Below, in pieces: positions 1,621 through 21,262 of a DNA stretch of 48,690 nucleotides. This DNA comes from Pirellulales bacterium (lineage in GTDB: Bacteria; Planctomycetota; Planctomycetia; Pirellulales; JAICIG01). Numbering within the stretch: the first letter of the stretch is position 1; the number at the start of each line of letters is the position of its first letter. The notes beneath the pieces were generated by a model. That model was not told where the DNA came from and did not search any database. It saw nothing but the letters and a program-made list of their open reading frames with translations. The DNA is taken from contig DATLUO010000047.1 of the NCBI GenBank assembly GCA_035533075.1, positions 1-48,690 of the forward strand, given 5' to 3'. Position numbers and translations under genes: made by a program.

Positions 1621-4600
1621 ATGAACATTCCTCTTCATTCTCGGCTTCTTGGGATCGCCGCCGAACGGTTCTTTGGGCTGGCGCGTAAAATCGCTTCGGC
1701 GCAAAATGGGCAGCCGGTGCCGCGGTTTTCGGATTGGGCCGAAATCGAAGCCGAATGGGCCCGGAATAATTCGGCCCTGAATGGGCAGGCAGGCCAGTAC
1801 GAGGCTGCCGCGAGATTGCTGCTGGACTTGGCAATGCTGAAGTGGCGAGTGCGCGTCGAAGGGAGCGAAATCGAGCTGGAGGCCCCCGCGTTGGGCAGCC
1901 GCCGCAGCATGACCGTTGAAGAGACGAAGGCCGCAAAAGACGCTGTTCGCCGTGAATTGGCTCCAATGCTGTATGAGCAATTCAATGACCCGCGGGTCAG
2001 GCACTTCCTGGACCTGATGGAAACCCCTGGCGAAAACTCTGCCCTTGCGAGCATTCGTCAGTTAATTGCCGACGGCGCAGAGGTCTTCGAGCGAATGCGG
2101 CCAGCGCTGTTAATCACTGGCGACGACCGGGGCAGGGTGTTGTCTCATTGCGTGCGGCCATATTTGCAACTCGTGCCCGATGAAAACGAGGATCCAATCA
2201 GCGATGAGTTCACGGGCCATTCACTAGGCAATATCTGGCGGTATTTTCGCTATTCATGGTCGATTCCAAATACACCGATTCCTGGCCGACGTTTGAACTA
2301 TTTGGTGCGCGACGCCGCACACCCCTGTCACGCGGTGATGGGCATCGCCGCCCTCGGCAATAGCCCGATGCAATCTGGCCCACGTGACGATGCCATTGGC
2401 TGGTCAACTGATGCTTTCCGCTCGCGACTCCGGCAAGCTGGGTCGCGTCGAGATCGCCGCGAGCTCCGGCATTGCCACCGATTTCTCGAGAATACACTGG
2501 AAAACGCCCTGGCGGAAATCGAAACCAAGTCGCTTGTGAAAAAGAACGAACTCGAGCGGCCCACGGAGGTGGTTATCGAGCGGCTGCGTCGTCGCAGCGC
2601 GGAATTTGCCGAGCGACGGCAGGACGTGTTGCAGGCGATTTCCGGCGAGACGACCAACTCCCCCAAGTACCTCCAGGAAATGGAAACGTGTGATGCCGAT
2701 CTGCCGCCCGTGAAGGTAGCCCTGCTGGAGCTCGAGGGACGAGCGATCAACGACGAAAACAAGCTGCGATCCCGACAAATGCTCGTGGCGAAGAAACGCG
2801 CATTTGAACTGAGCCGGCTCTTGCAGGCTCGCCTGACGCTCCAGCGCGAGGCCGACCGTCTGACCGATCCGGCAGCAATTGAGGGCTTGCTGCGCGAGGA
2901 CGCCTTTAACTCGGCTTTGAACACGACTCTAGTAAGCGCAAAGAGCGCTCGAGCGGGCACCAACATGCTGGAAGTCACTACCTGCGGAGCAATCCCCCCG
3001 TACAACCACTTGCTAGCCGGAAAGCTTACGGCCCTCCTTCTACTCAGCCCGCAAGTGGCGGACGACTATCGCCGGCGCTACGGCGACCAGCCATCGGTGA
3101 TCAGCTCCCAACTCAAGAACGCGCCACGCACCAAGGGCTGCACGCTGGCCTGGCTCAACACCACCAGCCTTTTCGCGATCGGCAGCAGCCAGTACGAACG
3201 CTTGCGTCTGCCGGCCGGGATCATTGCCTCCGAGCAGCCGGAAATCCGCTACAAGTTCCTCGGCGAAACTGAGGGCTACGGCACCGTGCAGTTTTCCAAG
3301 GCAACGACGGAAGCCATTCAACAAGCACTGGAAGACGAGACGACTTATCGCCATGTCAATCACGTGTTTGGCGAGGGCCCCAGCCCGAAGTTCCGTAAAC
3401 TCCGCAGTGGGATGGACCTGCTCGGCTTTAACGCTACCGTGTTGATGCGTCATGACCAACCGCGGCGCGTTTACGCGGTTTCGTTTTGGTCGAAGGCGGC
3501 AGAGTTTTTGCGAGGCGAATCGGCTCACGTCCCAGAATTTCTGCGTCACCCCGAAAGATATCGCGATGCCACCGACCGGATCGTGGAATATTGGCGTCGC
3601 CGTTGGCTTGCCAATCGGATTGACTTTGCACCCGCCCTGGAATCGCTTCGGCAGGGTAGGGGTTGGCTCCTGAGCGACCGGCTGCAGCCGACGGGGGAAC
3701 CGACTCATCGCAAACAGCGTCCTGGTTCTGCAGGAAAGCCAGTGCAGAGCCACCCCGAACTCGATTTCTGGCGTGACTTAGCCGTGGCCGGCTCACGAGT
3801 CTGCGCGGATGAACTTACGGACGAGGAACTCTCTCGCCTGCACGTGCCACAACCGCTCGACAAGTTCCTCGTCGATAAGGTGAAAAAAGGCTTCAGTTTG
3901 ATCCTCACGGGCAACGCCGGTGACGGCAAAACACATTTGTTGAAACGGCTAAAGTCGGAGTTCGACCGCGTCAAGGCGGAAGTTGTCTATGACGCGACAG
4001 CGATCATGAAGCCGGGAGACGTGTCGCCGATCCTTAAGCTTTGGAAAAAGGCGATCAAGGCTGGCCGACCGTTCTGTCTTGCGGCGAACGAATACCCTCT
4101 TTTCCTGCTGCGCCGGCACCAGGGACGTGAATTGCCGCAGCACATTGCTGAAATCGATCGTCAGTGCAAGGGTAGGTTGGTCTACGGGCCCGACGAAAGT
4201 CCCGAAGAGGCAGCGCGAGAGAAGGTTCTCGTCGTCGACCTTAGCTTGCGGAACCCTCTCGTATCTGGATTCGCGGAAAAGCTCTTGCAACAGATGCTGT
4301 CTCGACGGGAGGTCCTCGCCGCGGCGAAATCAGACGCCGAAGGTGATCTCGCTTGGAACTTGCGGCGACTCAATCAGCCGGAAATACAGACGAGGTTGTT
4401 GAACCTTTTTCACCGACTTGCTAGCGCCGGACGCCGGGCTACGGTGCGCGAACTGTGGATCCTCGTTGCACGGCTGCTGTTTGGGGAATGTCGCCCTGAC
4501 AATGTCCCTGTACGATCGCCGTCGCGATGGTACTCGGAGCGGCTGTTTCAAACTGACCCGCGTTTCACATTGCCTGGTCTGCTCGCGGATCTTGCCGATC

Positions 4601-5337
4601 CGGCGCGTCACAGCCATCCGCGTTGGGATGCGCGGCTCGAATACAGCCAGACCAACGACGCAGATTGGCTGGTCGACGGTGTTCCAGTGTCTCAGGCTCG
4701 CGACGGCGATCGCTTCCGGGCCCTCAAGCGTCGCTTCTATTTCGAGCATCGGGAAGGGTTGCGAGCATTCGAGTTGGCAGGCACACCCGGTCAGCGGTTG
4801 CTCACGCTGCTGGTCGAGCTCCGTGAGCCCGACCATGGCTTCAAGAATAATCTCGTCGCGGCTATCAACCGCGCGTATTGTGCGGTGCCGTTTCCGGAGG
4901 CCGCGACGAACTTGTACCTATGGATCGGTCACCGGTTCCATGAGCAACCATCGCATGCGTACGTTGCGTGCCAACAAATCCCCGCGTCGACGCTACGATT
5001 CATGTTGCCGCGATTGCCGCGGCGGTTGAGCGGCGCGTTCGGATACCAGCCGGATCACGTCCGAGTCGAGTTCCAGCAATCTGCCGGTCAGTCCGTAAGG
5101 CTCGACGTGGATTACACGCTCTTTGTGGCACTGGAGAAGCTCGAGCAGGGCCTGCCACGGCACCTTTTGCCGGCTCGGGACGTGAATCGCCTCGATGCTT
5201 TCCTCGACGAACTTCGCCGCACGGACGTGTCGCAGACCAACGTGTTCTTCATTCACAACCATGACACACGGACAACCGCCAAGATTATTCTGTCCGCGGA
5301 TGGAAAGCGTTACGAGGAGGTCACAACTTTTGAGTAA
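1621..5337 (+). CDS. DruA/DUF4338 domain fused to a DptF-like P-loop ATPase
   Basis: This 1238-residue protein has two recognisable halves. Residues about 110-690 match the DUF4338 family (Druantia DruA): the IWRYFRYSWS block at 205-214, a PGRRLNYLVRDAA block near 225-240, a GIAALGN block, and a CGAIPPYNHLLAGKL block at 455-469. A helix-rich, charged segment of about 150 residues (roughly 290-440) sits inside this half. After a linker near 700 comes a P-loop NTPase with Walker A GNAGDGKT at 764-771, resembling the GNxGDGKS/T loop of DptF, the ATPase of phosphorothioation-dependent restriction. A convincing Walker B is not obvious. ATG 1621 follows a TAA directly and has no clear Shine-Dalgarno sequence. 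The next gene overlaps by 8 nt, so translation is coupled. Joining a DruA domain to a DptF-like ATPase is unusual to my knowledge. Confidence 0.82.
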   Translation: MNIPLHSRLLGIAAERFFGLARKIASAQNGQPVPRFSDWAEIEAEWARNNSALNGQAGQYEAAARLLLDLAMLKWRVRVEGSEIELEAPALGSRRSMTVEETKAAKDAVRRELAPMLYEQFNDPRVRHFLDLMETPGENSALASIRQLIADGAEVFERMRPALLITGDDRGRVLSHCVRPYLQLVPDENEDPISDEFTGHSLGNIWRYFRYSWSIPNTPIPGRRLNYLVRDAAHPCHAVMGIAALGNSPMQSGPRDDAIGWSTDAFRSRLRQAGSRRDRRELRHCHRFLENTLENALAEIETKSLVKKNELERPTEVVIERLRRRSAEFAERRQDVLQAISGETTNSPKYLQEMETCDADLPPVKVALLELEGRAINDENKLRSRQMLVAKKRAFELSRLLQARLTLQREADRLTDPAAIEGLLREDAFNSALNTTLVSAKSARAGTNMLEVTTCGAIPPYNHLLAGKLTALLLLSPQVADDYRRRYGDQPSVISSQLKNAPRTKGCTLAWLNTTSLFAIGSSQYERLRLPAGIIASEQPEIRYKFLGETEGYGTVQFSKATTEAIQQALEDETTYRHVNHVFGEGPSPKFRKLRSGMDLLGFNATVLMRHDQPRRVYAVSFWSKAAEFLRGESAHVPEFLRHPERYRDATDRIVEYWRRRWLANRIDFAPALESLRQGRGWLLSDRLQPTGEPTHRKQRPGSAGKPVQSHPELDFWRDLAVAGSRVCADELTDEELSRLHVPQPLDKFLVDKVKKGFSLILTGNAGDGKTHLLKRLKSEFDRVKAEVVYDATAIMKPGDVSPILKLWKKAIKAGRPFCLAANEYPLFLLRRHQGRELPQHIAEIDRQCKGRLVYGPDESPEEAAREKVLVVDLSLRNPLVSGFAEKLLQQMLSRREVLAAAKSDAEGDLAWNLRRLNQPEIQTRLLNLFHRLASAGRRATVRELWILVARLLFGECRPDNVPVRSPSRWYSERLFQTDPRFTLPGLLADLADPARHSHPRWDARLEYSQTNDADWLVDGVPVSQARDGDRFRALKRRFYFEHREGLRAFELAGTPGQRLLTLLVELREPDHGFKNNLVAAINRAYCAVPFPEAATNLYLWIGHRFHEQPSHAYVACQQIPASTLRFMLPRLPRRLSGAFGYQPDHVRVEFQQSAGQSVRLDVDYTLFVALEKLEQGLPRHLLPARDVNRLDAFLDELRRTDVSQTNVFFIHNHDTRTTAKIILSADGKRYEEVTTFE
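5314..5320 (+). promoter_or_regulatory. Strong ribosome binding site that fixes a TTG start
   Basis: GAGGAGG lies inside the last codons of the upstream gene, 9 nt before the TTG at 5330. It decides the start of the second operon gene, because the only upstream in-frame ATG (5195) would give a 143-nt overlap with no such signal. Confidence 0.75.
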
Positions 5338-6652
5338 GGAACAGATATACGGCTGCGCGTTCGGGTTCAACACCGAGCGCCGGATCAAGCCGATTCATTT
5401 CGCCTCCGGATTTTTTCTGGCGTTGACGAACCGGTACTATCAGCTTGAGACGCTGAACAAGACCGTCGCGACATCTTCAAACAAAGAGATGAAGGAAGAC
5501 TATGCAACGCCGGGTCTGCGCGAACTGCTCCTCGCAAACGGATGCGTTTGTGCTGATTTCAGCGTGGAGTCCGTTCACAATATGCGCGGACACCTGCAAC
5601 CTGTGGCTGACAACGACGAGGCCGTCTATCCGGCGTTTCGCCCCTACTCCGGCTTCGGAAATGATTATTCTCTCGTCTCCTCTCGTCTCTTGACGAATCA
5701 CAAGCGGAATGACGGCTACGCCGGATTGTTCGTATCGTTAGTGCTCCAACAGTCCGACGCCGGCAAGCGTGTGGCAGAAATGGCTCTCCAATGGTTGGAA
5801 TCGGATCGCTCGGCATTGTATCGACTCTTCCGGCCATTGATTGACGATGAGGATGAAGCTGAGTCATGTGATGAGAAGGAGAGTCACGAGATTCGTTTTG
5901 GAGAACTGAAGACGACGCGGCTGAAGCGGGTTAGCCGGATGATGGTGGATCAAACCTCGGCTTTGGAGTGCCTCTGCAGAAACCTGGAGCGGCTGGTTGC
6001 TCCAGAGACGCGTCTTCGCGGCCTCACAATCGCCTTGCTCATTTGGCTCGTTCAATATTTGATCCGCGAAGGGCAAGGCAAAAAGTCGTCGCCGCTGCTG
6101 CTGATGGACTTCTTGGGGCGAAGACAATCAAGATTGCGGTCACAGAGTCGATGGTGTTTCACCAGAACGACCGAAGACCTCTTGCAAAGCTTTGCGCGGT
6201 TCGACGCCGAGGGCCGTTTCGACGAATGCCACAGTGAATACGAGGCACTCACAGCGAATTCGGCGTCGAAGTTTCCGCCGCTGCAGGAGGTTTTGCGAGA
6301 ACTCAGTCTACGATCAGGGCTGGCGCAGCCACGCGCCAATAATATCCCAAAACACTTTGAATTGCAGCCTGATACTCTTCGCGTCCTCGTCTTGTCGATG
6401 ATGCCGTATGGAGAAGTTCGGTCACTTGCAGAGTTAGCAACCCAGCTTTACATGGTCTGGGGGATTGTCATCGGTGCAAACGCCGACGACTCCGCACGTC
6501 TCGCCTCAAACGGCTACGCGGGTCTTGATCAGAGCGAAGACTTAACGCCAAATGTCGAAGCCTTTGTACGACTGCTGAAGGAGTTGGGTTTAGCAATCAA
6601 TCCAGCCGATGGGCTGGTTCTTTGTTCAACCCATAGCGAGAGTTTTTCATGA
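5330..6652 (+). CDS. Unrecognised middle subunit of the DruA-Dpt-like operon (DptG position)
   Basis: I read the start as TTG at 5330, giving a 440-residue protein that begins SKEQIYGCAFGF. It has no motif I recognise. It appears soluble and mixed alpha/beta, with an acidic patch near residues 170-190 (DDEDEAESCDEKE) and one hydrophobic helix (TIALLIWLVQYLI) too short and isolated to call a membrane anchor. Its place between a DptF-like ATPase and a DptH-like protein matches DptG, but that is position only, not sequence similarity. It overlaps both neighbours (8 nt and 4 nt), so all three proteins are probably made together. One sampled 60-nt line (5521-5580) is 53% GC against 65% at 13921-13980, which hints at a separate origin. 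Confidence 0.7.
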   Translation: MSKEQIYGCAFGFNTERRIKPIHFASGFFLALTNRYYQLETLNKTVATSSNKEMKEDYATPGLRELLLANGCVCADFSVESVHNMRGHLQPVADNDEAVYPAFRPYSGFGNDYSLVSSRLLTNHKRNDGYAGLFVSLVLQQSDAGKRVAEMALQWLESDRSALYRLFRPLIDDEDEAESCDEKESHEIRFGELKTTRLKRVSRMMVDQTSALECLCRNLERLVAPETRLRGLTIALLIWLVQYLIREGQGKKSSPLLLMDFLGRRQSRLRSQSRWCFTRTTEDLLQSFARFDAEGRFDECHSEYEALTANSASKFPPLQEVLRELSLRSGLAQPRANNIPKHFELQPDTLRVLVLSMMPYGEVRSLAELATQLYMVWGIVIGANADDSARLASNGYAGLDQSEDLTPNVEAFVRLLKELGLAINPADGLVLCSTHSESFS

Positions 6653-9600
6653 CCGCCGACGAACTCGCCTCCCAAAGTCTGCTGTGCTGGATTGACGCGG
6701 AGTTAAGCACGCACCGCGCGTTGGCGCGCCAGGAACTGCCCAAAATCGACTTGCCTTATTTCTTCGCTGGGTTGTCACAGCTCGCGTTGCCGGGTCCAGT
6801 TTCGTTGGCCTTGGTCGACTTCGATGCGGACATGGGCAAACTCGTATCTCTGCGGAAGAAGTATAAAGCAAATGGGATCATGCACTTGTCGGACGATCTG
6901 CACATGGCCGGCTCGTGGCGAAACTCACGAGCCTCGCACCCGTTCACGGTTGCACTTGCGCGAGGTCGACATCCTGGTGTCAACACTCTCCAGCACCAGG
7001 AGCAAGTGACTTCGGGGCAGCTTGTCCGCTACCTGTTGAGTTGGACCACGGAACGCGCTCCGTTCGTAAAAACATCGGGTCACAGGAAACTCTTGGAAGT
7101 GCTTACAGACGATGTGCTGCTCGCGGCGTTTTCATTCGAGCAAATTCGAGCGTTTCTCGCGACCTGGGCGACAAACGAGAAGAAGCACGGCAGCAACGCC
7201 CCCCGCGCGTCGTTACCCGCCCTCGGGTTGTTCGCTGATCCGGCTCTGTTTGAGCTCAGTCCGGGGCCGGAACTCCGACTCCAACGCAACTTGGAGACGA
7301 TCCGCAAGATCCGCGACCTGGGCGCCGGATCCTTGACGGCATTGCGGAAGCGCGTCGACAAGTCCAGGGGATCCCGTCTGCGAACCATTTTGGCAAAGAT
7401 TGAGACCGTCCGCCGCGAGCCAACCGTTGCCAAATTGGCTGACGTTACGCTCGCCGATGCGTTGGAGTTGCTAAACCCGCAGCCGGAAAGAAACCGCGAG
7501 CCCCCGGCGGAACCCGAAACAGAGGTCGACGAGGCGCTGGGAACGCTCGACGACCGAACGCTACCGCGAGCCGCCGCGGACGCCTTGCTTGACGACCGGC
7601 GGGACGATCTCCGTGCAAACGCGGAGACCCTTGCGGAACGGCTCCGCGATGCCATTCAGGGTGACGACACCGATGACGAGGTGAGCGGTGAGGTGCTCGT
7701 GGCCGGTGAACCGCAAGAGTTTTCCACAAGGCTCGACCGGAAATTCGTCGGGTGGATTCACAAGTTCTGTTCAGGGGAGGTGTGGGGCGGTTTGGTCCAA
7801 ACAAACCAGCCCGATCTCGCGCGGGCCTTGGCGGACTACGACCGGCCCGGCACACGTGTCACCAACCCGGAAGAACTAACAGTCGACGCAGAAGGCAGCG
7901 AACAGCTTGGGTTGTCGCGGTTCTTCAAGGACTGGGACCAGGAACTGGAGCGACTCACCGGGAAAAACCCTACGATTTCAGTCATTTGGCGCGAATTCGT
8001 CGAGCGGCGCAGCGAGCTGCTGCCAGACCTCGACATGCTGGCCCACTTTCCGCTCGATTGGTTCGCGGGCAATTCGAAGGCGGCCAAAACGGCCGAGAAG
8101 TACCTGAATGTCGCGGGACAACTGTACGGCTCGGTCGCCGCGAACTACGACCGCATGTCCGGCGAGGTGGATCAGCACTGGGCGCGAACGACGCTCGATG
8201 GCTTGCTTGCGCTCGACGTAGTGCAGGTTCGCGTCGAATTGGGACGGGGTGAGGAAGCGTTTAAGGCCGTTCTTCTGCCTACGCATCCGCTGCACTTGTG
8301 GCGCTACTGCCGGCTCAGCGCGATCCTGAGGGGCCTGGGTAAATCACTGCCTCCAGAGGATCGTCGCGCCGTGTTGGAGGAAGTCGGCGAGCCACAGCAG
8401 TTCCTAAGTGTCATCTACGCCAGTCGCTTTCCGGGCAATCGCGGCGCGGATCGCATTCTCCCTGTGTCGAGCGACATCCACCGGCTGGCGACGTTCGAAA
8501 ATCTCCGCAATGCCTGCCAGTCGGAGGACGGGCAGCAATCGCTCGCGTACGCCGTTGAGCGGTTCGCCGCCATTCATCGCCAGCACGTGTTTCCGCTACG
8601 CCTGGTTTTGCTGAACCCACCGCATGCCGGTAAATTGCTGCTCGGCTTGCTCAAGCTGCTCGATGGCCGAAAGCGCGACTTCATCCCTAACCTGTGTATC
8701 GAGATTCGCGGTACGCCTGAGCACGCCGGACGTCTACACGAAGCCCTGCCGTTTGACACCCGCGAACGCGACCTTCTGGAAGAACGGATCGCCAGCGGCC
8801 GCTTGGAATTGCGGGTCGACCGGCAGCCGAAGCCTCTATTGCAACATCTCGCGGCGTTGAAAGACAATCCGTGTCATCTGCTCGCTGTCTTCGACGAATC
8901 GAGCGTCAGTATCCGCCGCGGCGGCGCCGGCCTGCATCTGCCGATGAGCCCGTTCTGTGTTCGTCGGAACCCGAAATTCGACAAGTTTCAAAACGCGCTC
9001 CGATTGGAACCGGCCGATACCGATCCGCCCTTCGGCGAGTTCCTTAAACTGTTGAACAAGGCCGAAGGAGCCGAGAGCGAAGGAAACTCGTACGCGTGGG
9101 GCGATGCCCAAGGTCTTCGGGAGGCTGTGGATGGCACGGTCTGCGGTGACGAGTTTGCGGCGCGCTGGTTTTTCCTTGCTGATCGCGCACTGCCCGCCGA
9201 GGGAGGAATGAACGCCAAACGCCTGCTCCGTCGCCGCGAGGGGCAGCGACACGTATTGCTCACCGCTGGCGACTATCTGGCAATGGTTCGGCTCATGCGC
9301 CCAGTCTTTGAGGAGGACGCTGCCAACTTGCTCGTCTCCGTGCCGCAACTTGAAACGCTGTTGGCTGAGGGTGCTCATCTTGTCGGGGGTGGCGTGCTGG
9401 ATCTCGTAAAATCGAGCGACGGCACAATCGTGAAGCAGAAGGTAATTGGACTGATGGGCCTGTTGCTGGCGGCTCGTGACCACCGGCGGCGACACCCGGC
9501 GAGTCTGGTCGTCTCCACCGACTCGCAATTGGCTCGGCTCTGGCTGCGGCTCGGACAACAGGGGTTGGGCGAAATGGGACAACGTTGTGACTTGCTGGCG

Positions 9601-11277
9601 CTACGCGAGGAAAACCGGCATCTGGTAATCGAATGCCTGGAGGTGAAAAGTTCGCTGGACTCTCCGTTGGGGGCGACCGACTCTCGCATCGGCGAGGCTC
9701 GGGATCAGGTGCTGGCGACTCTGGAGGCGGTGCGCGATGGCCTTAGCGGCGTCAGCCCAGGCGGCGTTGAGGCCACAGTTCTCACCGCGCCGCGCTGTGA
9801 AATGATCAAGGAGGTGTTCGTCGCCGGTTCAATGAGCCGGCATGCAACAAAAGAACAGCGTGCCGTATGGGCTGACTGGCTCATGCGGCTTTTTCGTCCG
9901 TCGCCCGCACTGGTCGAGCTGCGCGGGAGAATCGTCGGCGTGTGGATCCGTAGCAGTCAGCGAGGCACGGAAGAACGACTCGCCGATGCCCCGTATCGCA
10001 TTGACCTGCGGCACCTTGGCGAACGGGAAGTGGAGGAGTTGCTCGCAGGCGACGGAGGGCCCCCAAAGGACGACGACCAGTCAGGTTTGAATGGCTCCGA
10101 CCTTGATGAACCTCCGTGTGGACCTCCGTCTGGTTCGCTTGCGAAATCTTCGTCATCGCCAAACGAGCGGGCCACCCATGCCGTGGCCAGCTCAAAGCAA
10201 GTCACTCGGTCAGCCAAACAACCTGCGTCGGCGCTCACTTCGTCAATTCTGCTTGGCCGTGCAAGCGATGACTCCTCCATTACTTGGGAGCCGAGCATTG
10301 CGGGCAATCCCCACCTGCTGGTCGCCGGCCAACCAGGCACCGGGAAGACGACATGTCTCGTCAACATTTGCTGCCAGTTCGCGGATCACGGTGTGATGCC
10401 GATCGTATTCGACTTTCATGGGGACATCGAGGCCAAGCTTGCTCCGCGCATTCCTCGAATGGTTCGTTCGGGGATGCGGAGTCTGGGCTTCAACCCGATG
10501 CGCGTTCCAATGCATCAGATACACGGCCACGTAGAAGCTGCCGGGTTGCTTCGGGACATTTTCTCCGCGGTCTTTCCCGACCTCGGCGACCTGCAGCTGG
10601 AGGCGCTCCGCACGGCGATCAAGTTGACATTTGAGGCAAAAGGCTGGCCAATTGGTGTCGGCAAGAAACAACCTGAGTCGCCAGAGTTTGGCGAGTTCCT
10701 GGGCTATCTGCGGTCGCTGCCGAAGAAGGACGCGGGAACACGTGCATTGTTGGCACGGCTGACGGAACTAGACGATTATGACTTTTTCGACAGTCACGTC
10801 GAGACGCCCAGCATGTTGGATCAGTCGCAGCCGGTCGTGATTCAGCTCCATCAGACTCAAAACGAAGCAGTCCAACGGGCGTTCGCCGCATTTACCTTCT
10901 ATCGCCTATACCAGGATATGCACCAGCGCGGCCAGCAAGATCGGATCACACACTCTATCATTTTCGACGAAGCGCACCGGGCCGCAAAGTTGAAACTGAT
11001 TCCGACTATGGCAAAGGAGTGCCGTAAGTTTGGGCTATCGCTAATACTGGCATCGCAGGAATCCCGTGATTTCGACCGTTCGCTTTTCGGCAACATTGCC
11101 AATTACCTGCTGCTGCGAGTGACGGAAGACACGGCGCGCCATCTCGCAAAGAACGCTCTACCCTCCGGCCGCCAGCGCGCCATCACGGACAAGCTGAAGC
11201 AGCTTCCGAAGTACGAGGCTCTGTGGCTATGTGAAGGACGAAAATCACCTGTCCACATCAGACTCTCCCCGAAGTAA
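6649..11277 (+). CDS. DptH-like protein: PD-(D/E)XK core plus HerA/FtsK-type ATPase
   Basis: This 1542-residue protein starts with an ATGA overlap. Residues 1-900 are not recognisable in detail. A nuclease-like core follows: D981 in QRCDLLAL, then a strand and E998-V-K1000 in CLEVKSS, i.e. D-X16-E-X-K. A Ser/Pro-rich linker (about 1130-1200) leads into a motor domain with Walker A GQPGTGKT at 1227-1234, a PIVFDFHGDIE block, and Walker B IIFDEAH at 1437-1443, followed by LASQES and NIANYLLLRV blocks as in HerA/FtsK-type DNA translocases. This order resembles DptH of phosphorothioation-dependent restriction. I infer DNA translocation and cleavage by the complex formed with the two upstream products. 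No stop or frameshift interrupts it. Confidence 0.8.
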   Translation: MTADELASQSLLCWIDAELSTHRALARQELPKIDLPYFFAGLSQLALPGPVSLALVDFDADMGKLVSLRKKYKANGIMHLSDDLHMAGSWRNSRASHPFTVALARGRHPGVNTLQHQEQVTSGQLVRYLLSWTTERAPFVKTSGHRKLLEVLTDDVLLAAFSFEQIRAFLATWATNEKKHGSNAPRASLPALGLFADPALFELSPGPELRLQRNLETIRKIRDLGAGSLTALRKRVDKSRGSRLRTILAKIETVRREPTVAKLADVTLADALELLNPQPERNREPPAEPETEVDEALGTLDDRTLPRAAADALLDDRRDDLRANAETLAERLRDAIQGDDTDDEVSGEVLVAGEPQEFSTRLDRKFVGWIHKFCSGEVWGGLVQTNQPDLARALADYDRPGTRVTNPEELTVDAEGSEQLGLSRFFKDWDQELERLTGKNPTISVIWREFVERRSELLPDLDMLAHFPLDWFAGNSKAAKTAEKYLNVAGQLYGSVAANYDRMSGEVDQHWARTTLDGLLALDVVQVRVELGRGEEAFKAVLLPTHPLHLWRYCRLSAILRGLGKSLPPEDRRAVLEEVGEPQQFLSVIYASRFPGNRGADRILPVSSDIHRLATFENLRNACQSEDGQQSLAYAVERFAAIHRQHVFPLRLVLLNPPHAGKLLLGLLKLLDGRKRDFIPNLCIEIRGTPEHAGRLHEALPFDTRERDLLEERIASGRLELRVDRQPKPLLQHLAALKDNPCHLLAVFDESSVSIRRGGAGLHLPMSPFCVRRNPKFDKFQNALRLEPADTDPPFGEFLKLLNKAEGAESEGNSYAWGDAQGLREAVDGTVCGDEFAARWFFLADRALPAEGGMNAKRLLRRREGQRHVLLTAGDYLAMVRLMRPVFEEDAANLLVSVPQLETLLAEGAHLVGGGVLDLVKSSDGTIVKQKVIGLMGLLLAARDHRRRHPASLVVSTDSQLARLWLRLGQQGLGEMGQRCDLLALREENRHLVIECLEVKSSLDSPLGATDSRIGEARDQVLATLEAVRDGLSGVSPGGVEATVLTAPRCEMIKEVFVAGSMSRHATKEQRAVWADWLMRLFRPSPALVELRGRIVGVWIRSSQRGTEERLADAPYRIDLRHLGEREVEELLAGDGGPPKDDDQSGLNGSDLDEPPCGPPSGSLAKSSSSPNERATHAVASSKQVTRSAKQPASALTSSILLGRASDDSSITWEPSIAGNPHLLVAGQPGTGKTTCLVNICCQFADHGVMPIVFDFHGDIEAKLAPRIPRMVRSGMRSLGFNPMRVPMHQIHGHVEAAGLLRDIFSAVFPDLGDLQLEALRTAIKLTFEAKGWPIGVGKKQPESPEFGEFLGYLRSLPKKDAGTRALLARLTELDDYDFFDSHVETPSMLDQSQPVVIQLHQTQNEAVQRAFAAFTFYRLYQDMHQRGQQDRITHSIIFDEAHRAAKLKLIPTMAKECRKFGLSLILASQESRDFDRSLFGNIANYLLLRVTEDTARHLAKNALPSGRQRAITDKLKQLPKYEALWLCEGRKSPVHIRLSPK

Positions 11278-11373: not shown

Positions 11374-11395
11374 TCTCTTTGGACCACGATCAACA
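11374..11395 (+). repeat. 21-nt sequence shared with 35985-36005 (one-base indel)
   Basis: TCTCTTTGGACCACGATCAA and the following CA recur at 35985-36005 with one C missing. Here it lies about 16 nt from the point where the RtcR-like gene loses homology. The other copy lies at the right end of an inverted-repeat element that abuts a truncated ABC ATPase. A chance match of this length in the window is unlikely but not impossible. Confidence 0.4.
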
Positions 11396-12204
11396 GCCGC
11401 CGCAAAAAGGCTCCGATTCGAGCAGCTCGCGCGAGAGGGCCGCGCAATTCACGGCCAGAAAGGGCCCCGTACGCCGCGGGCTGGCCTTGTGAATGGGCTG
11501 CGCGAACATCTCCTTGCCGGTGCCGCTTTCGCCGAGCAGCAGGACCGACACGCCGTGCAGGGCGGCGCGCTTTGCCCGACCTACCGCCACGCGGATGGCC
11601 TGGCTCTCGCCGACAATGTCGCCGAATCCTTCCACCTGGCTGGGAGCGTGCGAGGCAAGGTGCTCGAACTTCGTGTCGGCGCCACGCAATAGTTCGGGCA
11701 AAACGTCGATGGTCAGGTCGAACGGGATCTCCGTCTTCCACGCCTTGCCCTGGTGCGTTTCATAAAAGGTCGCCGGGTAGCGGGTCTTTCCCAGCAGCAG
11801 CCAAACGGCGGCCATGGCGGCGTGCCGGGGCTGAGATGAATGCAGAGTTCGACCGGATTGTCGGCCGTCTCGCGCGCGAGCCTGGCGAGCTCGGCGTCGG
11901 CGCTACGGAAGATGGCCGGGTAGTCGGTCGGCTTTTCCAGTTCGACGCGGATGATCGTGGCCTTCTTGCCGAGCCAATCGCGATACGACTTGTTCCAGGC
12001 AGGCCGAAAATTGCTGAGAAGGCGGATTTCGTCGAACGGCTCCGCGTCAATCAGCGCTTTGATGGGACCAATCTCGCGGGCGGTGGGTTGCGCGCCGCCG
12101 AGCTCGGCGAGAATCTCGGCGCCGGCCGAGTTCTTCCACGAGGCAGCCATGGCCTTGAGGTCGCTGTGCCCGATCCAGGCAACCAGCACCCGCCGCTTAT
12201 TCAT
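11390..12204 (-). pseudogene. RtcR-like sigma54 activator with CARF-like N-terminus, frameshifted and truncated
   Basis: The reading begins at 12204 with a CARF-like domain (RVLVAWIGHSD, later CIHLSPGTP). Near 11817-11822 a single G appears to be missing. Before it the frame reads SPGTPPWPP; after it the other frame continues with MAAVWLLLGKTRYPATF, as expected for this family. Downstream comes the sigma54-activator AAA+ start with Walker A GESGTGKE and a VNCAAL block. Homology stops after LLESE at 11411, where ELFGHxKGAFTGA should follow. The rest of the AAA+ domain and the DNA-binding domain are absent. In other bacteria RtcR activates the rtcBA RNA-repair operon; none is visible here. The gene is dead, probably broken when the neighbouring defence operon arrived. 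Confidence 0.8.
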
Positions 12205-13008: not shown

Positions 13009-13082
13009 GGGCGGCTAGCTCAGTTGGTTAGAGCGCCATCCTCACACGGTGGAAGTCACAGGTTCGAGTCCTGTGCCGCCCA
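13009..13082 (+). tRNA. tRNA-Val (anticodon CAC)
   Basis: The 7-bp acceptor stem GGGCGGC pairs perfectly with GCCGCCC, followed by discriminator A; CCA is not encoded. The D arm (GCTC/GAGC with AGTTGGTTA), an anticodon stem CCATC/GGTGG with one T-G pair and loop CTCACAC, and a T arm ACAGG-TTCGAGT-CCTGT are all present. Positions 34-36 read CAC, which decodes GUG. No repeat of its 3' end was seen elsewhere in the window. Confidence 0.96.
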
Positions 13083-19817: not shown

Positions 19818-20537
19818 TTAGGTCGCTCGCCGCGCCTGCAACGCGGCCAGGAACTTTGCGTGCTCTGGAGAGGCAATTCCCTCTTGCAGCACGGCAAAAA
19901 CGCGCGCCAGATCCCCTTTGAGCATGGCCGTGGGATCGAGCCAAAGGCCGGGAAGGACTGAACTCTTAAGGATGCCCGCGGCGTCCGGCTGAATCGGTTG
20001 ATATCTGCCGTCGACGAGACGAAACCAATCAAGCTGCGCATCGCGGACGCGGAGAACCAGATATTCGCACACTCCATGCCGGCGGTAGACCTGCAGCTTA
20101 TCGTGCAAATCATAGTTGACGGTCGATTTGGCGACCTCGGCCACGAATTCGGGAGGACCGGCAAAGTAGTCGTCTTCGTCGATACGCGCCTGACCGCCAT
20201 AGACGGGATCGATGCACAACGCCGCGTCGGGCTGAGGTTCATTGTCCCCGTCGAAGCGGACGCTGCCGTTGTTGCCGCCAGGCAAAAACACCGGCGTCGC
20301 AGCCCGATAGTATCCCAGCCATGTCACGATATCTGAGTGGGGACCGGAATGTCCGCTGGTAACCGGCGAAGGCATATAGACTCTTCCCTCGATCAGTTCG
20401 GCTTTTTTCAGATCCGGCATCGCGGCGTAGCGGCGCTCAAATTCGACCCGTGTCAGACGATCGCCCTGCTCCAACGGCGGAATGTCTTCGGCGGGCACCG
20501 GACGGGGCGATAAAGTTTCGGTGATTGCGATGGCCAT
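19818..20537 (-). CDS. Uma2-family PD-(D/E)XK protein, downstream copy
   Basis: The 239-residue product begins MAIAITETLSPRPVP. Uma2 signatures are LTRVEFERRYAAMPDLKKAELIEGRVYM, EPQPDAALC (acidic residue), FVAEVAKST, YDLHDKLQVYRRHGVCEYLVLRV. The family has a restriction-endonuclease-like fold of unknown biological role and is greatly expanded in planctomycetes and cyanobacteria. The next gene upstream is a paralogue of identical length, 5 nt away. The first 55 or so codons are almost identical between the two, while the rest differ considerably. The two genes are probably co-transcribed, this one second. Confidence 0.92.
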   Translation of the reverse strand: MAIAITETLSPRPVPAEDIPPLEQGDRLTRVEFERRYAAMPDLKKAELIEGRVYMPSPVTSGHSGPHSDIVTWLGYYRAATPVFLPGGNNGSVRFDGDNEPQPDAALCIDPVYGGQARIDEDDYFAGPPEFVAEVAKSTVNYDLHDKLQVYRRHGVCEYLVLRVRDAQLDWFRLVDGRYQPIQPDAAGILKSSVLPGLWLDPTAMLKGDLARVFAVLQEGIASPEHAKFLAALQARRAT

Positions 20538-20542
20538 GCAGC

Positions 20543-21262
20543 TTAACCTCTGCCACGCCGCGCCTTTAAGGCTGCGACGAAATCGACGTGTTCTGGGGAG
20601 GCGATTCCTTGTTGGAGAATCTGGAACACCCGCGCAAAGTCCCATTTCACGATCGCCGCCGGGTCGAGCCACAGCCCAGGAAAGACCCTACTTTTGAAAA
20701 GACCGGAAGCGTCTTTCGAAAGGCGTTCGTAGTTGCCATTCACGAGATGAAACCAATCGATTTCCGCGTCCAGCACGCGCCAGACGACGTATTCACGGAC
20801 GCCTTGACGGCGATAGACGTGAAGTTTGTCGTGCAAATCATAACTCACGCTGGATTTGGCAACTTCGGCCACCAATTCGGGAGGTCCGGCAAAATAGTCG
20901 TCTTCGTCGATATGCGATTGACCGCCGCACGCCGCGTCGAGGGCCAAAAGCACGTCAGGCTGAGACTCGTTGTCGTTGTCGAAGCGGACCGTAGTGTTGT
21001 CGCTGAGCGACACGCCCGGCGTGCCATCCTCGTATGCCCCCAGCCAGCGAATCAGCCGTGAGTGAGGTCGGCCATGTGCGGAGGTAACCGGCGAAGGCAT
21101 ATAGACTCTTCCCTCGATCAGTTCGGCTTTTTTCAGATCCGGCATCGCGGCGTAGCGGCGCTCGAATTCGACCCGTGTCAGACGATCGCCCTGCTCCAAC
21201 GGCGGGATGTCTTTCGCGGGCACCGGACGGGGCGATAAAGTTTCGGTGATTGCGATTGCCAT
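20543..21262 (-). CDS. Uma2-family PD-(D/E)XK protein, upstream copy
   Basis: This is the first gene of the tandem pair, also 239 residues and also starting MAIAITETLSPRPVP. The acidic core residues are kept (ESQPDVLLALD, LVAEVAKSS), as are YDLHDKLHVYRRQGVREYVV and FPGLWLDP. Compared with its neighbour, residues about 60-105 and much of the C-terminal half differ, while the N-terminal DNA differs at only a handful of positions. That pattern points to gene conversion or strong constraint of the first third. The biological role is unknown. Confidence 0.92.
   Translation of the reverse strand: MAIAITETLSPRPVPAKDIPPLEQGDRLTRVEFERRYAAMPDLKKAELIEGRVYMPSPVTSAHGRPHSRLIRWLGAYEDGTPGVSLSDNTTVRFDNDNESQPDVLLALDAACGGQSHIDEDDYFAGPPELVAEVAKSSVSYDLHDKLHVYRRQGVREYVVWRVLDAEIDWFHLVNGNYERLSKDASGLFKSRVFPGLWLDPAAIVKWDFARVFQILQQGIASPEHVDFVAALKARRGRG

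Follow-up and report, generated by a model that had tools for sequence, protein, structure and literature searches.

Gene content and layout of the operon

The window, as we call the complete stretch of 48,690 nucleotides analysed here, carries an operon of three genes for a DruA-DndF fusion protein, DndG and DndH. The operon and its parts are the following:

1621-11277, + strand: three-gene operon (fusion gene, dndG and dndH); intact, overlapping open reading frames
1621-5337, + strand: DruA-DndF fusion gene; open reading frame intact, stop codon included
1621-3690, + strand: DruA (DUF4338) part, residues 1-690; PADLOC PDLC00001, Pfam PF14236, model pLDDT 88.6
3745-5337, + strand: DndF part, residues 709-1238, with a P-loop NTP-binding domain and a C-terminal domain; SspF/DndF profiles
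3907-3933, + strand: Walker A motif of DndF, TGNAGDGKT, residues 763-771; conservation in 70 homologues
5195/5330-6652, + strand: open reading frame of gene 2, intact, with its probable start at 5330
5330-6652, + strand: dndG, 440 residues; model pLDDT 90.4, structure match to 7exx, profile match over positions 8-508 of 510
6649-11277, + strand: open reading frame of gene 3, intact; dndH, 1542 residues; PADLOC DndH (E 2.1e-22), profile match over positions 1-1580 of 1582
9589-9648, + strand: nuclease core of DndH, D981 / E998-x-K1000; conserved in 50/50, 49/50 and 49/50 homologues
10216-11274, + strand: HerA-type motor of DndH, residues 1190-1542; HerA/TrwB/CedB profiles

The initial annotation of this DNA had described three overlapping genes, the second encoding 440 residues, and had placed them in an order like that of DptF-DptG-DptH. 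Both points are borne out, as are its coordinates. The probable start of gene 2 is a TTG codon at 5330, which lies nine bases after GAGGAGG and overlaps the stop codon of the fusion gene, and gene 3 starts within the stop codon of gene 2. An overlapping tandem of dndF, dndG and dndH is a feature of the DndFGH restriction module and is present in the window; the identities proposed for genes 1 and 3 are supported by profiles, that of gene 2 by its structure match to DndG, and the nuclease and HerA/FtsK-type motor read from gene 3 by the conservation and profiles listed above.

Further features of the window are the following:

459-1475, - strand: divergent gene adjoining the operon; it contains a stretch of the D-x-E-V-K type, nuclease-like on inspection by eye, and no family match was found for it
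11390-12204, - strand: piece of a sigma-54 activator (Pfam, 71.6 bits) in two frames, apparently truncated, directly after the operon
13009-13082, + strand: tRNA-Val (cac), 1.7 kb past the operon
19818-20672, - strand: Uma2-family putative restriction endonuclease (Pfam, 101 bits)

The tRNA gene was considered as the boundary of an island and rejected, given that no 14-base repeat of the tRNA region occurs elsewhere in the window.

The DruA-DndF fusion protein

Residues 54-691 of the fusion protein match DruA1, the long DruA model of PADLOC, with an E-value of 1.6e-120; the Pfam DruA family is reached with 112 bits at a cut-off of 27, and 44 positions of the DruA part are invariant. DUF4338 has been called a GNAT domain (PMC10853773; Rakesh, Aravind & Krishnan, NAR 2024). 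When the DruA model was compared with the 390 PDB chains ranked highest by Foldseek, nearly all top rows were GNAT acetyltransferases, spanning residues ~178-624, with SpeG first (Z 8.9, 143 aligned residues, rmsd 3.0) and GCN5 at Z 7.8. In the model, a long helical insertion would divide the GNAT-like core into two stretches, residues ~178-261 and ~445-624. Because Foldseek alone gave no significant match for the DruA model, this moderate resemblance of the predicted core supports the published assignment without proving it. A search of PDB sequences with the DruA profile returned chance matches only, and the loop past the GNAT-like beta strand, read by eye, is N-x-x-L-x-G-K-L, as opposed to the classical Q/R-x-x-G-x-G/A. 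In three genomes of the window's phylum (G122, G088 and G217), DruA/DUF4338 proteins, often of ~300 aa, are present in at least seven copies per genome, as if borne by insertion sequences.

From about residue 730 onward, the fusion protein matches the SspF/DndF models of PADLOC (best E 1.4e-13). The score against TIGR03238 (DptF, NCBI) is 18 bits, under the cut-off of 50, and the assignment to DndF therefore rests on the profile matches, the P-loop, the gene order and the homologues together. By sequence, the DndF part is weakly similar to the reference families, though profile and gene order agree; the DndF profile built in this analysis is matched over positions 5-535 of 537. Residues T763, G764, G767, D768, G769, K770, T771 and D791 are conserved in 70/70 aligned homologues, N765 in 67/70 and N823 in 69/70. 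The published signature of DndF combines a canonical Walker A motif with N in the Walker B position (PMC10853773), which is the pattern given here by T763-T771 and N823.

DndG, DndH and exchange of the DndH motor

Gene 2 has no match above cut-off in the family libraries; the nearest is MAD7 (E 0.035), far under its curated cut-off. Its structure was modelled from 29 homologues and compared with 996 chains, among which solved DndG (7exx) stands out with Z 15.6 over 335 aligned residues, the next match having Z 3.6. The predicted structure thus confirms gene 2 as having the DndG fold. Haloarchaeal and other homologues of gene 2 match SspG profiles. As a single-sequence query in 294 genomes of the window's phylum, gene 2 found the window alone, and distant relatives were therefore reached via DruA.

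Gene 3 matches, in addition to DndH, mad8 (2e-19) and HerA. The operon resembles MADS (mad7/mad8) in this similarity of the motor to mad8 and in the weak likeness of gene 2 to MAD7, but the scan of four proteins revealed no further component of MADS. For DndH, a nuclease followed by a HerA/FtsK motor with a Q sensor and an arginine finger has been described (PMC10853773), and the window DndH has the expected residues: next to the nuclease core, D1440-E1441, R1459 and Q1470 are invariant in 50/50 homologues.

The motor of the window DndH shares 52% identity with its counterpart in a Rhizobium system that has a NERD-kinase on DndF; the DndH body of that system shows no significant match. Compared with a relative at locus L035, identity amounts to 50% for DruA, 47% for DndF, 39% for the DndH body and 13% for the motor. 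The C-terminal part of DndH is an AAA+ domain in L035 and in L030, L032, L034 and L036 (Pfam AAA above cut-off in 5/5). RuvB_N exceeds its cut-off of 27 in L032, L034, L035 and L036 and reaches 23.9 in L030, and the C-terminal part of L035 has sequence matches to solved RuvB across nearly its whole length (1e-12). The D...E-x-K motif is found in the DndH body of L030, L032, L034 and L035. Judged from these similarities, close relatives of the window operon have swapped the HerA motor for a RuvB-like AAA+ motor. Other loci have FtsK motors (L039, L046, L060) or HerA motors (L053, L037). RuvB is absent from the text of PMC10853773, and we found no open-licence paper pairing it with DndH; DndH with a RuvB motor extends the published idea of HerA/FtsK capture to another class of DNA motor.

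Linkage of DruA to DndF across genomes

The DruA alignment was scanned against one genome per species, covering 84,980 species, and the best 80 of 251 relatives yielded 79 loci. All of these have DruA by design of the query, and they were ranked by similarity to the DruA of the window, which favours linked forms. In 63 of the 79 loci from these best 80 relatives, DruA is either fused to DndF (38 loci) or encoded directly upstream of it (25 loci, one of which also has DruE). DndF, DndG and DndH occur together in 54 loci, a number of the remaining ones being interrupted by the end of a contig, and all four parts, DruA included, match the profiles built in this analysis over their full length across lineages. 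Represented among the loci are Bacillota, Pseudomonadota, Acidobacteriota, Verrucomicrobiota, Chloroflexota, Spirochaetota, Nitrospirota and one MAG labelled as Muribaculaceae, together with plasmids of Hymenobacter and of haloarchaea. Among the plasmid records listed, each one that is matched over the DndF part is matched over DruA too. When the fused state is mapped on the DruA tree, 5 changes are required, as compared to a mean of 29.6 when shuffled, which implies that fusion or fission occurred several times.

Linkage was also examined from the side of DndF, by searching its profile against 299 genomes of a single family, that of a Lachnospiraceae MAG. Four strong matches (at least 470 bits) were obtained and all of them are linked to DruA: three have frames as long as the fusion, 1202-1231 aa, and the fourth, of 518 aa and from the L091 genome, forms an adjacent pair with it. 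The same 299 genomes gave five weak matches (100 bits or less), and the surroundings of three of them were read and showed no DruA. Given that DruA is fused to DndF or directly upstream of it in most of the surveyed loci and in many phyla, it seems to be a regular component of this DndFGH subclass, not one that is added now and then.

The published reading differs in this respect, as the variable N-terminal domains of DndF, DUF4338 among them, have been proposed to serve as backup effectors (PMC10853773). Transferred to the window, DndFGH would restrict and DruA would act only as a backup, its GNAT domain acylating proteins of the host or the phage once the nuclease has been blocked. Relatives from Rhizobium, with motors 52% and 46% identical to that of the window, speak for such a role in that they carry NERD or NERD-kinase on DndF instead. 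We nevertheless consider it rather unlikely: 25 of the 63 linked loci keep DruA as a gene of its own next to DndF, the strong DndF matches are all DruA-linked in a family sample chosen without DruA, and the 44 invariant positions of DruA suggest a more central role. This published view and the possibility that DruA writes a DNA mark, discussed below, are the main rivals to the reading of DruA as a standing subunit.

A gene for an SfsA-like protein is found near druA-dndFGH in 32 loci, close after dndH or close before druA (for example L040:9286-10014 and L039:17052-17741). The protein matches Pfam SfsA and SfsA_N, and its conserved D110 and E122-x-K124 would make it a putative D/ExK-type nuclease. 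Nearly all of the 32 loci belong to Bacillota, the exceptions being one Treponema, one Muribaculaceae-labelled MAG and two contigs of a viral catalogue. The window has no SfsA-like gene, and no open-licence paper mentioning SfsA together with Dnd was found. Two loci from viral_contigs (L104 and L105) are catalogued as viral and contain the fused system in full; L104 and Muricomes intestini (L045) have identical DruA proteins.

Modification genes

The initial annotation had noted that neither dndBCDE-type genes nor DruE are visible in the window, and our searches of the window likewise found neither. Absence elsewhere in the window's own genome rests on profile searches. In this genome, contig C38 (L018, ~6.6-10.5 kb, - strand) holds truncated remnants of dndC, dndD and dndE. 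The dndC piece covers positions 45-245 of 447 of the model and has a frame change, the dndD piece is a C-terminus (459-621 of 650), and dndE is likewise represented by its C-terminus only; dndB was not found by the profile searches. Intact dndBCDE was therefore found neither at the locus nor in the genome. DndC scores above cut-off in four of the 49 genomes with DruA-linked loci, and its absence from the others is uncertain because many are MAGs. In the survey of homologous neighbourhoods, which had been suggested alongside the initial annotation and which returned the DruA-DndF linkage described above, tblastn of four full DndC proteins found none in any fetched locus.

The C38 remnants are what a phosphorothioate-dependent DndFGH could draw on, if it used marks made elsewhere in the genome. 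A simple version of this arrangement was rejected, since the dnd genes of the genome are fragments; with dndB missing and no dndC above cut-off in 45 of the 49 related genomes, many of them MAGs, we regard any dependence on such marks as very improbable.

The modification partner that is otherwise missing could be DruA itself. As a GNAT-fold enzyme acting in the manner of Mom of phage Mu, DruA would replace DndABCDE by writing a mark, and DndFGH would cut unmarked DNA. The GNAT-like fold of DruA is in line with this idea, and since dptFGH has been found harmful without dptBCDE (PMC12707154), a protective partner would be expected. Against it, DruA has no sequence similarity to Mom, in a comparison of one sequence against a profile that does not amount to an exclusion, and DruA also occurs in Druantia I loci that lack DndFGH. 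We judge a mark-writing DruA to be unlikely, and the same applies to the fuller proposal that DruA marks DNA in place of the phosphorothioation module in a complete modification-dependent system, with HerA, FtsK and RuvB freely interchanged as motors among lineages. If true, DruA-DndFGH would be a complete restriction system of a new type, dependent on modification.

Relation to Druantia

Similar to Druantia type I (DruABCDE), the window operon has a long DruA; it differs in that this DruA is joined to DndFGH and that DruE is missing. The search for the DruE1 helicase in the window was negative, and DruB, DruC and DruD did not come up when the three operon proteins and that of the divergent neighbour were scanned with PADLOC. 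The reading as a full Druantia I was dismissed because DruE is missing. Across DruA loci, DruE occurs in 14 of 93, mostly where DndFGH is absent, and both are present in five: four haloarchaeal plasmids and L032, which has an N-terminal part of DruE1 at the end of the locus. On the plasmids (L005-L008), unfused druA-dndF-dndG-dndH adjoins genes for DruE-type helicases; L006 has a full-length match to DruE1 and a weak match to DruD1, and L006-L008 have two further divergent genes, one of them weakly DruD-like.

These five loci, as well as a DruE3-type fragment on contig C136 of the window's own genome, could be taken to indicate that the operon is a reduced form of Druantia I, aided by a DruE helicase whose gene lies elsewhere. 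In the majority of DndF-linked loci, however, DruE is missing from the surrounding 10 kb, and the fragment is of another DruE type and on another contig, so that we attach almost no credence to this explanation. The term hybrid, by which the initial annotation had connected the operon to Druantia, was too strong: DndF-linked DruA is usually without DruE, and the two meet in five loci only.

Proposed mechanism and relation to described systems

The view we favour, and consider fairly likely, is that the operon encodes a standalone restriction complex of the DndFGH type, with DruA as its standing subunit. While the gene identities, the catalytic residues, the conservation of the operon and the lack of a phosphorothioation module close by are established by the data above, we infer that the operon probably cuts up invading DNA, with phages as the presumed target. 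DndFGH has been reported to possess nickase and translocase activity (PMC11662687). In the proposed sequence of events, DndG, a winged-helix DNA binder, and the body of DndH would engage DNA, the HerA motor of DndH would translocate it, and the D-ExK domain would introduce nicks. DndF may bind nucleotide and thereby gate the reaction. DruA, with its GNAT-like fold, its place as the first part of the operon and, in many cases, a single polypeptide shared with DndF, may license or trigger this gate, most likely by an acyl-transfer-like modification or by ligand binding. DruA would then take the role in distinguishing self from non-self that is held by phosphorothioate marks in classical DndFGH.

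Parts of this arrangement have been described before. DUF4338 is listed among the N-terminal fusions of DndF, and DndFGH is treated as a standalone system (PMC10853773). This passage covers the same fusion and the same three-gene system with no modification genes required; fusion and lack of modification genes are therefore published. The initial annotation, which had named an already published system with the same fusion and gene order as grounds against its proposal of a new and undescribed combination, held with regard to gene identities, gene order and the absence of nearby dnd modification genes and DruE, but not with regard to novelty or to a hybrid with Druantia. The published account gives the domain one clause, as an occasional co-effector, and makes no link to Druantia, the words Druantia and DruA being absent from its text; the present survey, in contrast, shows a partner that recurs, at times as a gene of its own, with variants that have an SfsA-like gene, DruE or a RuvB motor. 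In the titles and abstracts of open-licence papers, we found no account that unites DndFGH with Druantia or DruA in a single system, and we also came upon no experiment with a DruA-DndFGH operon. What is new is DruA as a recurrent partner across many phyla. Compared to the DndFGH (DptFGH) module of E. coli and Salmonella, the operon is alike in gene order, in the predicted DndG fold and in the nuclease and HerA/FtsK motor of DndH, whereas it has no adjoining dndBCDE, includes DruA and stays below the cut-off of the DptF profile.

These results unite Druantia and Dnd, two defence families with separate annotations, in a single type of operon that is widespread. In RefSeq-style annotation, the fusion is named 'Druantia anti-phage system protein DruA' and its DndFGH part stays nameless; annotation tools will thus mislabel DruA-DndFGH operons. 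The versions of DndH with HerA, FtsK and RuvB motors form a natural motor-swap series in which the contribution of the motor can be tested. The operon also poses a testable question, namely how DndFGH separates self from foreign DNA without a phosphorothioate module, and whether it is DruA that supplies this ability.
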